NCBI GenBank assembly: GCA_015486235.1 | Contig: WFSD01000023.1 | Span: 1-33,328 of the forward strand | Direction: 5' to 3' | Source of the DNA: Anaerolineae bacterium | Lineage (GTDB): Bacteria; Chloroflexota; Anaerolineae; S016-19 | Length of the DNA: 33,328 nt | Part shown: one piece after another, positions 8,120 through 33,328 of the stretch | Numbering within the stretch: the stretch's first letter is position 1 | Layout: each line of letters starts with the position of its first letter | Position numbers and translations under genes: made by a program | Notes under the pieces: generated by a model | Told to the model about the DNA's origin: nothing | Databases searched by the model: none | Seen by the model: only the letters and a program-made list of their open reading frames with translations

Positions 8120-8134
8120 TGTGTGCCCCTGGGA

Positions 8135-8293
8135 GGGCTGTCGAAACTAATCGAAAGCACGAAATCGCTTCAGGGGCATTTCTCGACGCTTCTGAAGCGA
8201 TCCGTTACTTGCCGTTGGGGTTGATGTAGAGCGATAACGGTTCTGGGGATTCCTGGGGGCCCGTAGGGCCCCCAGGAATTGCTTCGCTCTCCC
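8135..8293. mobile_element. MITE-like element, copy A
   Basis: Imperfect termini GGGctgtCGAAaC.. / ..gCTTCGctctCCC; flanking exact direct repeat CCCCTGGGAGG at 8126-8136 and 8291-8301; homologous to copy B at 25822-25979. Confidence 0.75.
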
Positions 8294-8450
8294 CTGGGAG
8301 GTTGCTGGGCCAGACGCTCGACGCCACAAGAGAGTGTCTCGAGGGCGCCCTCGTTTCCATGGAGGTGGGCCAGGGATCATTACGTTTTCTCCGGCAAGTC
8401 ATAAGCTGCATTCAGGGGAGCGGCGGGCTTTGTCCGGAGCAAGGGAGTCG

Positions 8451-11711: not shown

Positions 11712-11912
11712 CTCGTCACCTCCTCACAGGGCTTTCGATCGAATTGGTGGCGCTCAAAAGCAATGAGATGAGTCCGCCCGGACGAAGGTTGCTTCTTGAC
11801 CTCACCCATCACCCTGGCCGCCTGCGGGCGAGGCTGGACCGTGGGAAAATCGCGCCGGGATGGCTCTCTTGAGCGGTTCCCATTGTCGCCAGCGCCACCA
11901 GCGGCAAATTTT

Positions 11913-11936
11913 GTAGAGCGGGCTGTTAGCCCGCTC
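11913..11936 (+). repeat. REP-like palindrome with GTAG head
   Basis: GTAG + GAGCGGGCT-GTT-AGCCCGCTC (9-bp stem). Confidence 0.7.
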
Positions 11937-12027
11937 AAGTCAAGCTCGAACAGGAAACGCGCTTGGGAGCGGTTTTTTCTCTCCATGCATTCGGACTTTT
12001 CTCTCGTGTTTCGTCATGCGATGTGAT

Positions 12028-12051
12028 GAGCGGACTGACAGTCCACTCTAC
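12028..12051 (-). repeat. REP-like palindrome with GTAG head, inverted orientation
   Basis: GAGCGGACT-GAC-AGTCCACTC-TAC; reverse complement carries the GTAG head. Confidence 0.7.
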
Positions 12052-12170
12052 AGGCTTACACAGTCCCTTTTCCGTTCGGAAAGCGTGAGCATTCGCAAGC
12101 GGGCGATAGCATCCCCCTCGATTGCTGCAAACCCGCCGCGAGCCCTTGCGCTGCTCGTGTGGAAATCCCC

Positions 12171-15745: not shown

Positions 15746-15824
15746 GCAATGCCCTCCTTTGTCTGTAAGTTTTCCGCAAAATCGGTAGCGCTTAAAGGCA
15801 GAGTGATGAGTACCAACGGGAATT

Positions 15825-15848
15825 GTAGGGCGAGCCGTCTGGCTCGCC
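15825..15848 (+). repeat. REP-like palindrome with GTAG head
   Basis: GTAG + GGCGAGCC-GTCT-GGCTCGCC. Confidence 0.65.
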
Positions 15849-15995
15849 GGGTCGAGCTAATTGCAAGTTTAACAAAATGCTTTGACAATGAATGCGTCTG
15901 GGTGAGAGCGAAGATTGCCTTTTGCCCACACCCATCACCTCAGCCGACTGCGGCGGCCTACCCCCGTACTTGTGCCGCCAGTGATGGCGAGTTTT

Positions 15996-16019
15996 GTAGA
16001 GCGGACTGTTAGTCCGCTC
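15996..16019 (+). repeat. REP-like palindrome with GTAG head
   Basis: GTAG + GAGCGGACT-GTT-AGTCCGCTC. Confidence 0.7.
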
Positions 16020-16524
16020 CGCCAGGACACCCTCAAAGCTTACTTATGCCAGTGAAAAGGCAAAACTCACTTGACCGGCCATCCGGCAGCCCCTCCCTCG
16101 CCCGCCGCAGTGGGAAAGGGAGAGGTTGGGGTAGGAGAGAGCAAAAAGCGACGCCTCCCACCAGTCTCGGGCGCCACCAACGAATCTGGCACCGACCAGA
16201 ACGTTGTTTGCGCGAAGGACGTTTTTTAACGTATGGGGGATCTGAGCAACACGACATCCCCTGGCGGGTTCTGTGGCGCTCTCCTTATCGTCAGAATAAT
16301 TGGTAGCGCTCAAAAGCAGTGTGATGAGTTCGTCTGGGCAAGGGCAAAGATCGCTTTATGCCCTCTCCTATCACCCCAGCCGCCTCCGGCGGCTTTCCCC
16401 TCTTCCCTCTCCCATTTGTCATGGGCGAGGGAAGAGGGGCGCGACGGGCACGGCTGCACCGTGGGAAAACGGCAAATCGCGTTGGAGTGGCTTTCTTGTC
16501 GCAAGCACCACCACCGGCGAATCT

Positions 16525-16550
16525 GTAGGTGCGGGGCTCGTCCTCGCCCC
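16525..16550 (+). repeat. REP-like imperfect palindrome with GTAG head
   Basis: GTAGGTGCGGGGCTCGTCCTCGCCCC: imperfect stem with one mismatch and one wobble. Confidence 0.5.
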
Positions 16551-16650
16551 CTTGTCAGCTCGCTCGGGCTAGCTCAGACAATCTGCTGCGAGCAAGTTTT
16601 CTCCATGCGCTCTGACCGTTCTCTGGTGCTTTGTCATGCAATGCCTGCGT

Positions 16651-16674
16651 GAGCGGACTGACAGTCCGCTCTAC
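16651..16674 (-). repeat. REP-like palindrome with GTAG head, inverted orientation
   Basis: GAGCGGACT-GAC-AGTCCGCTC-TAC. Confidence 0.7.
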
Positions 16675-16752
16675 AGGTTCACATGGCCCTTTCTCCGTTC
16701 GGAAAGTGCGAACACTTGCAAGTGACCGCTGCCGGCCCCTCCCTCGTCTTTT

Positions 16753-22480: not shown

Positions 22481-23473
22481 TCAATTTGCCTGCCACACCG
22501 GCAGGTGCAACAAAACGTCCTCCAGCAACAACCTGGTGTTCGCATTGCTCCTTAGCATCCGACGCACCCTCTGAAGCCTGCCCAAGAAGGCTCTGGCGGT
22601 TTCCGGCGCAATGGCCGAAGCCAGATGGCCGAGTTCCTCCCGCTTGTCCTCGTTGGTCACGCCCTCGTCGAATCCGGACTGCAGGAGCAACACATCCCTC
22701 CACCATCCGCTCCAAACATCAAGCCATTCTGCAATCAAGGTTTTGCTGTCTCGCATCTTCTCCGCATACGCCAGCCTGTCTGCGTAAACCGACGACATCA
22801 GCTCCAGCATATCCCTCCAGAACGATTCCCGGTGAATCAGGAAATCCGGGTTTTCCAAGGCGGTAACCGCCCACCCGATCCTGCCGCCGGAAAGCCGTGC
22901 CAGCAGATTCGCTCTGGATGCGTTGGCCCCCCATCTCTCTTGCAAGGCTTCCGATACCAACGCCGTTGGCAACGGGCGCAGCCGGATTATCTGGCACCTG
23001 GACACGATGGTGGGCAACAGGCTCTCGGCGCTCTCCGCTGTCAATACCAACAGCGTGTGGGACGGGGGTTCTTCCAATGTTTTGAGCAGAGCGTTGGCAG
23101 CAGGGATGTTCGCCTTGTCGAACTGCTCCAATATCCCGATTTTCCATCGCCCTTCCACCGGGGAAAGGGCGAGTTTCCGTTCCAGGTCTCGGATCTGTTC
23201 GATCTTTACCGATTCTTTCTCCGGCCGTACATGGATCACATCCGGGTGTCTGCCTGCCGCCTGCAGGCGGCAGGACCGGCACTCGCCGCACGGGCGATCC
23301 TTGGCCTTGGGTGCGAGACAGTTCACAGCCATGCTCCATGTCTGCGCCAGCAGCGTTTTCCCCACGCCCTCGGGCCCCACGAAGAGCAGTGCATGCGGTA
23401 GCTTGCCCGATTCGATAGCCTGCTGCAGCAGGCTGACCGCCCACTCGTGCCCCACGACCCCCCAATCGCTCAT
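22481..23473 (-). CDS. holB: DNA polymerase III delta' subunit
   Basis: PHALLFVGPEGVGKTLLAQTWSMAVNCL, CGECRSCRLQAAGRHPDVIHV, LKTLEEPPSHTLLVLTAESAESLLPTIVSRCQIIRLRPL. Confidence 0.94.
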   Translation of the reverse strand: MSDWGVVGHEWAVSLLQQAIESGKLPHALLFVGPEGVGKTLLAQTWSMAVNCLAPKAKDRPCGECRSCRLQAAGRHPDVIHVRPEKESVKIEQIRDLERKLALSPVEGRWKIGILEQFDKANIPAANALLKTLEEPPSHTLLVLTAESAESLLPTIVSRCQIIRLRPLPTALVSEALQERWGANASRANLLARLSGGRIGWAVTALENPDFLIHRESFWRDMLELMSSVYADRLAYAEKMRDSKTLIAEWLDVWSGWWRDVLLLQSGFDEGVTNEDKREELGHLASAIAPETARAFLGRLQRVRRMLRSNANTRLLLEDVLLHLPVWQAN

Positions 23474-25614
23474 CGCCAGCGAATCGTCTGCCCGCTAGAT
23501 GGTGCTCTGCCACGGCCCGGACAAGTCAGTCTCCCGATTGGCGTGCCATCTGTTCCAATTACTCCAACGGTGGGATATCTCTGTCTATCTGGCATGGAGT
23601 CGTAAATTGCCTCAATGGTGCCATCGCGCCGGAAGATCAGGCGAAAACTGGCTTCTTCGTTGCTCTGGAAGAAGGGCACGTCACGCCATTGGATCTCGAC
23701 AGTGTTTTCGCCCAGAAAGGCTGTTACCCTGCCCCCTGCGGAAGGGTCCAAATCATCTCCCAGAACATACACTGTGGCGGGCATGTGCTCTGCGCTCTCG
23801 CAGGATATTCGGTAGGGAGCCCTGGATGCCGCAGGTGGACGGAAAGTTACGAACCCGTTGGATGCTACCCATACCCTGGTGTATTTCTTCCTCTCGCCTG
23901 GCAGGTGCACGGGGAAAGGGAGATCGAGTTTCTGGTACTCGTCGTCGCCTAGGGCGATGTTTTGTTCATCGTAGACATTCAGCGGCGGCGAGGCGGGAAA
24001 GTACGGCATGTAGTATTGTTGTATTTCCGCTGAGGTATACTGGAGCGTCACTGAGATAGTATGTGGAAGCCCCTGGACATCGGAGTACGGAGATGAAATC
24101 GTCACCGTTCCGGAGTACACCCCAAAAGGCAGATCGTTACTTGTCATTGTGACAGTAAGCCCCTGGGATTCATCCGGTCCAATAGTCCTGGAGATTGGGA
24201 CTGTCAGTGCAAGCCAACCTGTGCCGCCGCGCACCGTTGCCTCCCATGGTATCGCGTAGATGTGACTTTCGTTTTTCAGCAGTACTCTTTTGTAGATTGG
24301 TTGGTTCGTATGGTTGGTCAGGAAATAGATACTGTCTGGCAAGTCGTCTACGCGGGGTGGGAGGAGCCTCCTTAGAGCTCTGCTCAGGTTTATGCGGCCG
24401 TAGCCCAGGTATTGGTTCCATCCGTTGGAGTCGTAAACATATAGCCCTACCTTGTCACAGGTTTCTTTCAGAATGTCCGCCACCTCGTCGTTGGTCAAGT
24501 CGGGGCGTAAGCTCATGAGCAAGGCGGCAGCTCCGGACACGTGGGGAGTGGCCATTGAGGTGCCCACAGCTCCGGAGTACAGTCCATTTGGCACGGTACT
24601 GATAATCGGCGTCCCATCACCACCAGGTGCTGCCAGATCCACCTCGTCGCCATAGTCGCTGTATGGAGCGCGATCGTCGTCGGCACCAGTAGCTGCCACA
24701 GCCAGCACTTCCGGGAATGCCGCAGGGTAGTAGACTCCGCGGCGGTCATCGTTCCCGACTGCTGCTACCAACAGTATTCCAGCGTCGTGAGCCTTCCGCA
24801 CTGCTTCTCGCACTATGTCCGAATCCTCGTTGCCTCCAAGACTGATGTTCAGCACCCTCACGCCGTCGTCGATAGCACCGTAAATAGCCGATGCCAGGTT
24901 GAAGTAGCTTCCCTCGCCGGTTTCGTCCAGGACTTTGTAGGCACGGATCCTCACGCCCCATGCCACGCCTGCCACACCTATGCCGTTATTCCCCATTGCG
25001 GCAAGTATCCCGGCAACGTGGGTGCCATGCCAGAAATCGTCGTATGGGTCGTTGTCATGGTTGACGTAATCGTACCCGGGCAGGATCCTGCCCTGGAACT
25101 CGGGATGCAAATCGTCTATTCCAGAATCTATGATGCCGACCACGATCTGAGGTGTTCCGGTGACTACGCTCCACGCTGTCGGTGCCTCGATCTTTCTCAT
25201 GTTCCACTGTTTGCTCCAGTAGGTGTCGTTGGGTACGGCAGGGCTCAGCGAGGGTTCCGCACAGGCGCGGATTATGTAGTTTGGTTCGGCGTATTTCACC
25301 AGGGGGTTGCTTTGGAGATCTCTGATAGCCTGTATCTCCTGCCCATCAGGCACTTTCAGCAATACCACCTGTGAGTTCTTGATCTCTCCAATGACCTTAT
25401 ACCCCTGTTCCGAGAGGAAGTCCCTGGCCTTGGCAAGGGACACCATTTCCTGGAACTGCACCATTACCTCTCCGGAGATAGCGTCGTCAGTGATGCTCTC
25501 GGCTGATGCCACATCTCTGTGGCCCAGGGCGATGATCAAGAGAAAGGCCGTGCCAAGCGCTACGGCTATGGCCACTGCAAAAGCTGTGCGCTCGACCAGT
25601 CGTCCTTTACGCAT
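23470..25614 (-). CDS. Secreted subtilisin-like (S8) serine protease with C-terminal beta-sandwich/nidogen-like region
   Basis: VGIIDSGIDDLHPEF, HGTHVAGILAAMGNN, VGTSMATPHVSGAAALL; signal-anchor MRKGRLVERTAFAVAIAVALGTAFLLI. ATG 25614 with GGAGGAATTC SD. Stop overlaps the holB start. Confidence 0.92.
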   Translation of the reverse strand: MRKGRLVERTAFAVAIAVALGTAFLLIIALGHRDVASAESITDDAISGEVMVQFQEMVSLAKARDFLSEQGYKVIGEIKNSQVVLLKVPDGQEIQAIRDLQSNPLVKYAEPNYIIRACAEPSLSPAVPNDTYWSKQWNMRKIEAPTAWSVVTGTPQIVVGIIDSGIDDLHPEFQGRILPGYDYVNHDNDPYDDFWHGTHVAGILAAMGNNGIGVAGVAWGVRIRAYKVLDETGEGSYFNLASAIYGAIDDGVRVLNISLGGNEDSDIVREAVRKAHDAGILLVAAVGNDDRRGVYYPAAFPEVLAVAATGADDDRAPYSDYGDEVDLAAPGGDGTPIISTVPNGLYSGAVGTSMATPHVSGAAALLMSLRPDLTNDEVADILKETCDKVGLYVYDSNGWNQYLGYGRINLSRALRRLLPPRVDDLPDSIYFLTNHTNQPIYKRVLLKNESHIYAIPWEATVRGGTGWLALTVPISRTIGPDESQGLTVTMTSNDLPFGVYSGTVTISSPYSDVQGLPHTISVTLQYTSAEIQQYYMPYFPASPPLNVYDEQNIALGDDEYQKLDLPFPVHLPGERKKYTRVWVASNGFVTFRPPAASRAPYRISCESAEHMPATVYVLGDDLDPSAGGRVTAFLGENTVEIQWRDVPFFQSNEEASFRLIFRRDGTIEAIYDSMPDRQRYPTVGVIGTDGTPIGRLTCPGRGRAPSSGQTIRWR

Positions 25615-25777
25615 GAATTCCTCCACGTCAGGCCCCTTTCGGTGGGATTCCACCGCGTTTAGGCTGGCGGTGTTTTCTTCAGGGTTTGAGCTATTGTTGT
25701 CAATCGGCGTCACTGCGCATGCCAGAACTTCCCGTAGCTGCCCGGTCGGTTGTGTTTCTGGCATCTCGATGGAAAAT

Positions 25778-25806
25778 ATTATAGCAGGATGAGCAGCATA
25801 AAGCAA
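25778..25806 (-). promoter_or_regulatory. Putative promoter of the subtilase-holB-ricT operon
   Basis: Minus strand TTGCTT-N17-TATAAT. Confidence 0.45.
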
Positions 25807-25821
25807 AGGAGTTTTGTCGGG

Positions 25822-25979
25822 GGGCTTTCGAAGCAAATCGGAAGCCCGAAGTCGTTTCAGAAACTTTCTCGGCGCTTCTGAAGCGATCCGCTACTTGCCG
25901 TTGGGGTTGATGTAGAGCCATAACGGTTCTGGGGATTCCTGGGGGCCCTACGGGCCCCCAGGAATTACTTCGTTTTCCC
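25822..25979. mobile_element. MITE-like element, copy B
   Basis: Termini GGGctttCGAAGcAAaT / AaTTaCTTCGttttCCC; flanking exact direct repeat GTCGGGGGG at 25816-25824 and 25980-25988; about 94 of 100 core bases match copy A by hand alignment. Confidence 0.78.
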
Positions 25980-26252
25980 GTCGGGGGGATCACCCACATC
26001 CCCCTCGACCGTGGTCGCTGTTTACACTTGGGTGCGTTCTCACCTTTGAATTAGCGGCGAGCAAGCGTATGGTAGGCTCTGGGCGACCTTACAAACCTTA
26101 AATCGCCGACAGAGGCCGGATTTTAAGCTTACTCTCCCGACACAACCTACATCTTGTACTCTTTGTTCCTCCGACCACTGGCAGTTGGCATCTGTCGCTT
26201 CCGTCAGGGCGATATCAATTCCGAAACCCGTTGTCCAAGCGCTTGGATCCCC

Positions 26253-31438: not shown

Positions 31439-32722
31439 ATGAGAAACGTGCTGGCGGTGATAATGGCGGGAGGGCAGGGAACGCGCCTCAGCGTTCTTTC
31501 AGAGCACAGGGCAAAGCCATCGGTGCCTTTCGCAGCTAAGTACAGGATCATCGATTTCACCCTTTCCAATTGCGTGAATTCCGGCATTTACAATGTGGCA
31601 GTGCTGACCCAGTACAGGCCGCACTCACTCAATGATCACATCCGTATCGGCAGACCGTGGGATCTGGACAGGGCGCGGGGTGGGGTTCAGTTGCTGCAAC
31701 CTTACCAGACATTTGGTAGGGATATCTGGTATCGCGGGACGGCGGATGCCGTCTGGCAGAACTGGAATTTTATTGAGTCCCAAAGGCCAAACATGCTCCT
31801 CGTCCTCTCTGGAGATCATATTTACAAAATGGATTACCGCCCTATGCTGGAGTTCCATGAGAGGAACAACGCCGACCTGACCATCGCGGTGATGCGGGTG
31901 CCCATTGAGGAGGCGCACCGTTTTGGGATCATGGAGGTGGATGGCTCCTACATGGTTACCAGATTCTGGGAAAAGCCCAAAGAGCCGCCTGGTGACCTGG
32001 CATCGATGGGGATTTATGTCTTCAACTCCAGCATTCTGAAAGTGCGGATGGAAGAGGCTGGTCCTGACACCTCTCGGGAGGACTTTGGGAAGCATGTCAT
32101 ACCGAGCATGATAGGCCGGGACAGGGTTTTTGCTTACCTTTTCGAGGGTTATTGGGTAGATGTGGGAACGCTGCAATCTTACTGGGAGACCAGCCTGAGT
32201 CTTCTCTCTTCCGATCCGCCCCTCAACCTCTACGATCCCGATTGGGTCATACATACCAGGAGCCAGGAGAAGCCGCCAGTAAAGTTCACGCCTCAGGCGA
32301 TCGTCCGGCAAAGCTTGGTGGCCAACGGTGCTGTGATTCATGGGCAGGTATACCATTCGGTGATATCCCCCGGCGTCTACGTGGCGCCCGGTGCCGAGGT
32401 GCAGGACTCCGTGGTAATGAACGATACCTGGATCGGGCCGGGCGCCAAAGTGGATAAGGCTATCATAGACAAGGATGTCGTCATAGGCATCGGCACGAAG
32501 GTAGGCGTCGGGGAGGATATCGACACGCCTAACAGAGAGCAGCCGGACAGGGTCTATACCGGCATCACCGTAATAGGCAAGGGGGCCAGAGTCCCCAAAG
32601 GTTTTACTCTTGGGCGTAATGTTCTGGTACACTCCTTTGCAGAGGAGAAAGATTTCACGCATTTCGCCGACGGCATCGTCCCATCTGGAGAGTCAGTGGG
32701 AGGTGAGGAGGTGGGAACATGA
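31439..32722 (+). CDS. glgC: Glucose-1-phosphate adenylyltransferase
   Basis: [53 protein letters not shown]...[12 protein letters not shown]...[12 protein letters not shown]-terminal left-handed beta-helix repeats. Confidence 0.95.
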
Positions 32723-33328
32723 GCGGGAGTGTCCTGGCGATGATCATGGCAGGGGGGCCGGGGAAAGGCCTGAGTGTGTTGACGGCCCGCCGTGCAGCGG
32801 CCTCCGTCCCTTTCGGCGGAAAATACAGGGTGATAGATTTCACCCTGTCCAACTGTGTGAATTCGAACATCTACAATGTCGGGGTTCTGACCCAGTACTG
32901 GCCTCGGGGTCTGAACGATCACATTGGCGTCGGGAAACCATGGGATCTGGACAGGCTACACGGCGGCGTTCACCTGCTCCAGCCATACTTGGGTGTGGAG
33001 AACACCAGCTGGCAGAGAGGCACAGCCGACGCGGTGATCCAGAACCTGGATTTCATCCAGGAACAACACCCGGATTACGTGCTGTTGCTTGCAGGAGACC
33101 ACATCTACAAAATGGACTACCGCCCTCTGATACATTTTCACCTGGAGAAAAGCGCTGACGTGACCCTGGCTGTGCGCACCGTGCCCAAGTACGAGACGTA
33201 CCGCTTCGGGATAGTCCGGGTGGACCCCGACGGCGAGGTGGTGGAGTTCCAGGAGAAACCGCGGTGGGCATACAGCACTCTCGCCAGCATGGGAATCTAC
33301 GTTTTCAACACCGATTTCCTGATAGATA
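32719..33328 (+). CDS. GlgC paralog, GlgD-like, truncated by the window end
   Basis: ATGA overlap with glg[78 protein letters not shown]... open to the window end. Confidence 0.9.

Follow-up and report, generated by a model that had tools for sequence, protein, structure and literature searches.

A MITE family of Anaerolineae inserted at a fixed distance upstream of sigma-70 promoters, with full-length relatives that encode a sigma-like protein

A MITE family in the genome of an Anaerolineae bacterium inserts at a fixed distance upstream of sigma-70 promoters. Two of its copies, A and B, lie in the window, that is the whole stretch of 33,328 nucleotides that was analysed (contig WFSD01000023.1). 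We consider it probable (roughly 0.78) that copy A is a non-autonomous member of an Anaerolineae transposon family of DDE type, and that its fixed mode of insertion arises from a promoter-bound sigma complex, probably including a sigma-like protein of the element itself, which positions the transposome.

Results

Two MITE copies in the window

The 11-bp repeat CCCCTGGGAGG occurs exactly at positions 8126-8136 and 8291-8301, and a sequence-only reading of the window had taken it to bracket a MITE-like element of ~159 bp. Both the repeat and the element were confirmed (Table 1), and so was a homologous element starting at 25822 between a different direct repeat; copies A and B are 88-90% identical. 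The element edges (GGG...CCC) were set by alignment of 75 genomic copies. For the target-site duplication a length of 6-11 bp had been envisaged; it is 6 bp in both copies, and the upper value did not hold, as the family has duplications of 5-6 bp and rarely of 7-8 bp. The repeat around copy A extends to 11 bp because C/G bases beside the 6-bp duplication CTGGGA match by chance. In a same-genus genome (G001), the alignment obtained in looking for the empty site was confined to the downstream gene, and the window family is absent from this one same-genus genome searched.

Table 1. Coordinates of the MITE copies, their parts and the full-length elements
Feature	Sequence	Position	Strand	Remarks
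MITE copy A	window	8135-8293	+	159 bp; ends GGG...CCC
Left target-site duplication, copy A	window	8129-8134		CTGGGA
Right target-site duplication, copy A	window	8294-8299		CTGGGA
Left terminal inverted repeat, copy A	window	8135-8151	+	GGGCTGTCGAAACTAAT, degenerate form of GGGMTTTCGAAGCAAAT
Right terminal inverted repeat, copy A	window	8277-8293	-	AATTGCTTCGCTCTCCC
First internal stem, copy A	window	8164-8201	+	ATCGCTTCAG...CTGAAGCGAT
Central GGGGTTGAT motif, copy A	window	8217-8225	+	kept as GGGGTTGAY by divergent families in other genomes
31-bp palindrome, copy A	window	8249-8279	+	3-base loop, found in both orientations among copies
MITE copy B	window	25822-25979	+	158 bp
Left target-site duplication, copy B	window	25816-25821		GTCGGG
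Right target-site duplication, copy B	window	25980-25985		GTCGGG
Palindrome, copy B	window	25935-25965	+	loop TAC, opposite to GTA of copy A
-35-like TTGCTT beside copy B	window	25801-25806	-	weak, 3/6; 15 bp from left end (6-bp duplication + 9)
-10 box TATAAT beside copy B	window	25778-25783	-	17 bp after the -35-like box, reads away from copy B
Autonomous element, G397	L269	820-3563		2744 bp; duplication CGGCAA
Autonomous element, G396	L270	1035-3778		2744 bp; duplication GGCAG
Distant autonomous element, G161	L272	799-3550		~2752 bp; right tip is the contig end, so no duplication is readable

The MITE family in the source genome

The source assembly, an Anaerolineae bin of 3.1 Mb in 441 contigs, was searched for further copies, which proved abundant: the core pattern has ~84 matches, and termini number 200-300 (~212 right ends with at most two mismatches, ~308 left ends with at most three). 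From these we extracted 75 copies of 147-166 bp, of which 47 group with A and B and 19 have a different interior, the remainder being intermediate. Transposition with target-site duplication, as the sequence-only reading had proposed, is borne out by locus-specific exact duplications at 41 of the 75 copies (5 bp, n=21; 6 bp, n=15; 7 bp, n=3; 8 bp, n=2); for shuffled flanks, 0.4 (5-bp) and 0.2 (6-bp) exact repeats are expected as compared to the 21 and 15 seen. Homology running through the repeats would have spoken against this interpretation; instead it ends at the element, and the flanks of different copies are unrelated (no pair exceeds 60% identity over 45-100 bp). The terminal inverted repeats of the family are imperfect and 16-17 bp long (GGGMTTTCGAAGCAAAT / GGGARARCGAAGYAATT), and the copies contain no transposase gene, any frame being broken by length differences of one and two bases between copies. 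The repeat is a MITE, uniting terminal inverted repeats, target-site duplication and short length without a transposase gene.

Two other identities were discarded. An RNA gene finds no Rfam match, and the strong fold on both strands results from the palindromes; for an IS200/IS605 (PATE-type) element no target duplication is expected, and duplications are present in this family.

The loop of the palindrome was read in 64 copies genome-wide, including A and B, and its two orientations are roughly balanced, TAC (26) or TAT (9) versus GTA (20) or ATA (8). Its orientation differs between nearest-neighbour copies in 32/61 cases, which means that loop inversion outpaces mutation in the remainder of the element; the palindrome arms co-vary in 14 cells.

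A second repeat family has GGTRGCGCTCAAAA ends, which may recall ISL3-type elements, and is found in the window (11742-12116, 15780-16026 and 16298-16739) as well as in L003, L016, L024, L028 and L167. Several times these repeats sit in the AATT of MITE ends, and in L167 one lies within a MITE copy, with the 8-bp duplication AATTACTT. An old MITE copy also harbours an IS4-like element (L131 1176-2700, G000:C97) with a transposase of 449 aa and its own inverted repeats, TACAAGTTAAGG.... Elsewhere in the window, two tandem glucose-1-phosphate adenylyltransferase-like genes share 71% identity over 258 bp (31448-31705 versus 32731-32988).

Relatives in other genomes

A left-tip search across 396 genomes of the class revealed multi-copy carriers in other families, with at least 108 termini in G379, 44 in G354 and 23 in G293. 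Their elements mostly measure 156-160 bp, some 173-250 bp, with 5-bp duplications around 13 of the 18 full copies from G379 and 5-6 bp duplications around 7/15 copies from G354. Interiors diverge between genomes, the central GGGGTTGAY motif being kept. Exact-pattern scans of genome and viral contig collections yielded no further carrier of the core. G354 has a 250-bp MITE variant alongside the 157-160 bp form (L193, L201, L204, L205, L207), and in G293 (L103, L116, L123) CATTCCCGCGAAAGCGGGAATCC-type palindromes have been added to MITE interiors, so that one repeat lies inside another.

Insertion upstream of sigma-70 promoters

Flanks of the G379 copies carry near-perfect sigma-70 promoters at one distance, which was the trigger for scoring all flanks against TTGACA-(16-18)-TATAAT, out of 12. 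In the window's genome, an outward-reading promoter scoring at least 9/12 lies at an offset of 12-17 bp at 43 of 74 insertions, as compared to 0.59% expected (log10 p -75), with a peak at 14-15 bp from the element end. Outward hits at this threshold number 51 at offsets 12-17 and 13 at the 62 positions of offsets 18-79; inward-facing hits total nine across the 80 positions of offsets 0-79. With the looser threshold of 8/12, a promoter is present at 56/75 insertions versus 6% of random positions, and permuted consensus pairs gave a mean of 3.1 versus 41/72 with the true consensus. Where both an exact duplication and a promoter are present, the -35 offset exceeds the duplication length by exactly 9 in 16 of 21 copies. 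Thus, relative to the -35 box, the duplication is anchored at its promoter-side edge and varies at the opposite one.

The same peak is seen for the MITEs of other genomes (13/38 at 9/12 or higher). The autonomous elements described below likewise have a promoter at 14 or 15 on one flank (4/4; L269, L270, L271, L272), including TTGACA-17-TATAAT at 15 and TTGACA-17-TACAAT at 14. Copy B has TTGCTT-17-TATAAT (9/12) at the predicted 15 bp, its weak -35 box not being called by the stricter scan; the TATAAT is directed towards a subtilase-like gene (23470-25836, minus strand). For copy A, neither flank shows a clear promoter (best 6/12), and this copy belongs to the ~1/4 of copies in which none is recognisable at the expected place.

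Ten copies form tandem arrays in which another copy's left end follows past the duplication, and in nine of these the first copy has the promoter on its outer (left) flank, as repeated insertion at one promoter-defined site would predict.

Full-length elements with a sigma-like and a transposase gene

In G379, many contigs end within one of two identical sequences bearing the MITE tips, which is the mark of a longer repeated element. Searching relatives with both G379 ends led to intact elements (Table 1), and thus the full-length transposon with shared termini that had been looked for was found, in other Anaerolineae genomes. The elements in L269 and L270 are 89% identical and occupy different loci. 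All have tips as in the MITEs, with GGGNNTTCGNAGC ends, 5-6 bp duplications where testable and a copy of ATCAACCCC near each end, comparable to the central MITE motif. The tips and the 5-6 bp duplications common to both support membership of the window MITEs in this transposon family. At one locus of G396 (L267), a MITE adjoins an autonomous-element end. In L271 (G397:C111), an IS21/IS481-like transposase gene, possibly inserted, is located ~190 bp on from an autonomous-element end.

All three full-length elements carry a sigma-70-like gene followed by a transposase gene; the sigma gene of L272 has an N in its sequence and spans two reading frames. The sigma-like protein matches regions 2 and 4 (Sigma70_r2, 44 bits; Sigma70_r4, 41 bits), and in region 4.2 it is similar to housekeeping sigma factors, the best partial matches being RpoS/RpoD. 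In the proteins of L269, L272 and L273, region 2.3 shows no sign of its usual tryptophan pair, an absence that would fit promoter binding without opening. In G208, the same tips are followed by the sigma gene on one contig (L273) and by the transposase gene on a separate contig (L274), the latter leaving no room for a sigma gene between element end and transposase homologue.

The transposase has 534-567 aa and no match in Pfam, NCBIfam or PDB sequences; the L272 protein is 36% identical over 545 aa. Residues D220, D370 and E516 are invariant in the three transposase sequences, and their contexts, typical of DDE enzymes, suggest a DDE-type transposase. In order and context the conserved D, D and E are reminiscent of IS4/IS701/IS1380-type transposases (PF01609); however, profile comparison with a set of IS4-type transposases detected no similarity, and the transposase has no profile match to the IS4 superfamily. 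Relatives of the transposase were absent from plasmids, phages and viral contigs. Other candidate partners were discarded as well: none of the seven DDE_Tnp_1 matches in the MITEs' own genome, among them the one in L131, and none of the PF01609 transposases of five other genomes have these tips. Solitary left ends, considered as ends of a transposon, turned out in most cases to be MITEs that had decayed or diverged.

None of the loci read from the source genome contained an autonomous copy. Such a bin would easily lose a repeated element of 2.7 kb, because hardly any of the contigs inspected is shorter than 3 kb. Autonomous elements in G396 and G397, and the matching contig ends in G379 (same genus), occur together with MITEs. 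The MITE copies in the window's genome are probably moved in trans by the transposase of the full-length element.

Discussion

The position statistics show that the family targets promoters. We propose that a sigma complex bound at the promoter, probably with the element's sigma-like protein as a component, sets the transposome directly ahead of the -35 box. Of the two strands, one would be cut 9 bp upstream of this box and its partner another 5-6 bp out, such that the element would land beside the promoter and leave it unbroken. MITEs would be mobilised in trans by the transposase of the full-length element, and in tandem arrays the newcomer would land between the promoter and the older copy, repeating the same duplication. 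The presence of a sigma gene in the element suggests a role of its product in targeting, and we lean towards the view that the element's own sigma factor is the target selector, alone or with RNA polymerase, positioning the transposome 9 bp upstream of -35 for autonomous copies and MITEs throughout the class.

A serious alternative is that the targeting signal is the host's own polymerase, that is, the transposase docks on the sigma-70/RNA polymerase of the cell, and the only task of the element's sigma gene is transcription of the transposase. The match of the target promoters to the housekeeping consensus TTGACA-17-TATAAT would agree with this, as would L274, in which the transposase gene follows the element end without a sigma gene before it. 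However, that an element carrying sigma regions 2 and 4 inserts at sigma-70 promoters would then be a coincidence, and we regard docking on the host complex as rather unlikely, although sequence alone would not separate it from selection by the element's sigma factor. The transposase might also read the -35/-10 sequence itself, for which the fixed 9-bp spacing between duplication edge and -35 box could be cited. Yet both hexamers, at a spacing of 16-18 bp, are enriched and reach ~40-45 bp from the insertion edge, which is the footprint of a sigma-bound complex and makes direct recognition improbable.

Two further explanations dispense with promoter targeting. The size, termini and duplications of the repeat are usual for MITEs, and it could simply belong to a known IS family as a MITE without special targeting; but the transposase of its full-length relatives fits no known family, the ends of this genome's DDE_Tnp_1 transposases differ, and the targeting is strong, so that this explanation appears very unlikely. 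Least credible of all is random insertion with persistence of harmless promoter-adjacent copies only. Insertion upstream of a promoter does spare gene and promoter, but harmless sites 20-80 bp upstream should then be equally frequent, whereas the peak is 3-4 bp wide and the offset tracks the duplication length. We therefore favour positioning of the transposome by a promoter-bound sigma complex.

Tn7 (TnsD/TnsE) and CRISPR-associated transposons use a dedicated target selector, and the targeting proposed here would likewise depend on a second element-encoded protein. In contrast to these systems, a sigma factor is the candidate for the selector, any sigma-70 promoter can be the target, and the transposase matches no family model. 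Through TFIIIB/Pol III, the yeast retrotransposons Ty3/Ty1 integrate beside Pol III start sites. The family described here resembles them in its fixed promoter distance, a safe place, but is a bacterial DNA transposon with its own initiation factor and no reverse transcription. To our knowledge, base-pair-precise promoter-directed insertion has not been described for bacterial transposons, and a literature search covering few subscription journals retrieved neither a transposon-encoded sigma factor nor a promoter-targeted bacterial transposon. Bacterial MITEs such as ERIC, Chunjie and QMITE (reviewed in PMC10969869) are, like the present family, short, gene-free and high in copy number, with imperfect terminal inverted repeats and target duplications. 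Unlike them, this family sits at a fixed promoter distance, and its full-length relatives carry a sigma factor gene.

Insertion beside promoters explains how hundreds of copies can be carried with little harm. The position of each copy marks a promoter, and thus the family provides a natural promoter map for uncultured bacteria. The elements also suggest a natural system for inserting DNA ahead of promoters, and they would allow a direct test of the capacity of a sigma factor to serve as a targeting subunit in transposition. If true, target selection by the element's own sigma factor would be the bacterial counterpart of Ty3/TFIIIB targeting.
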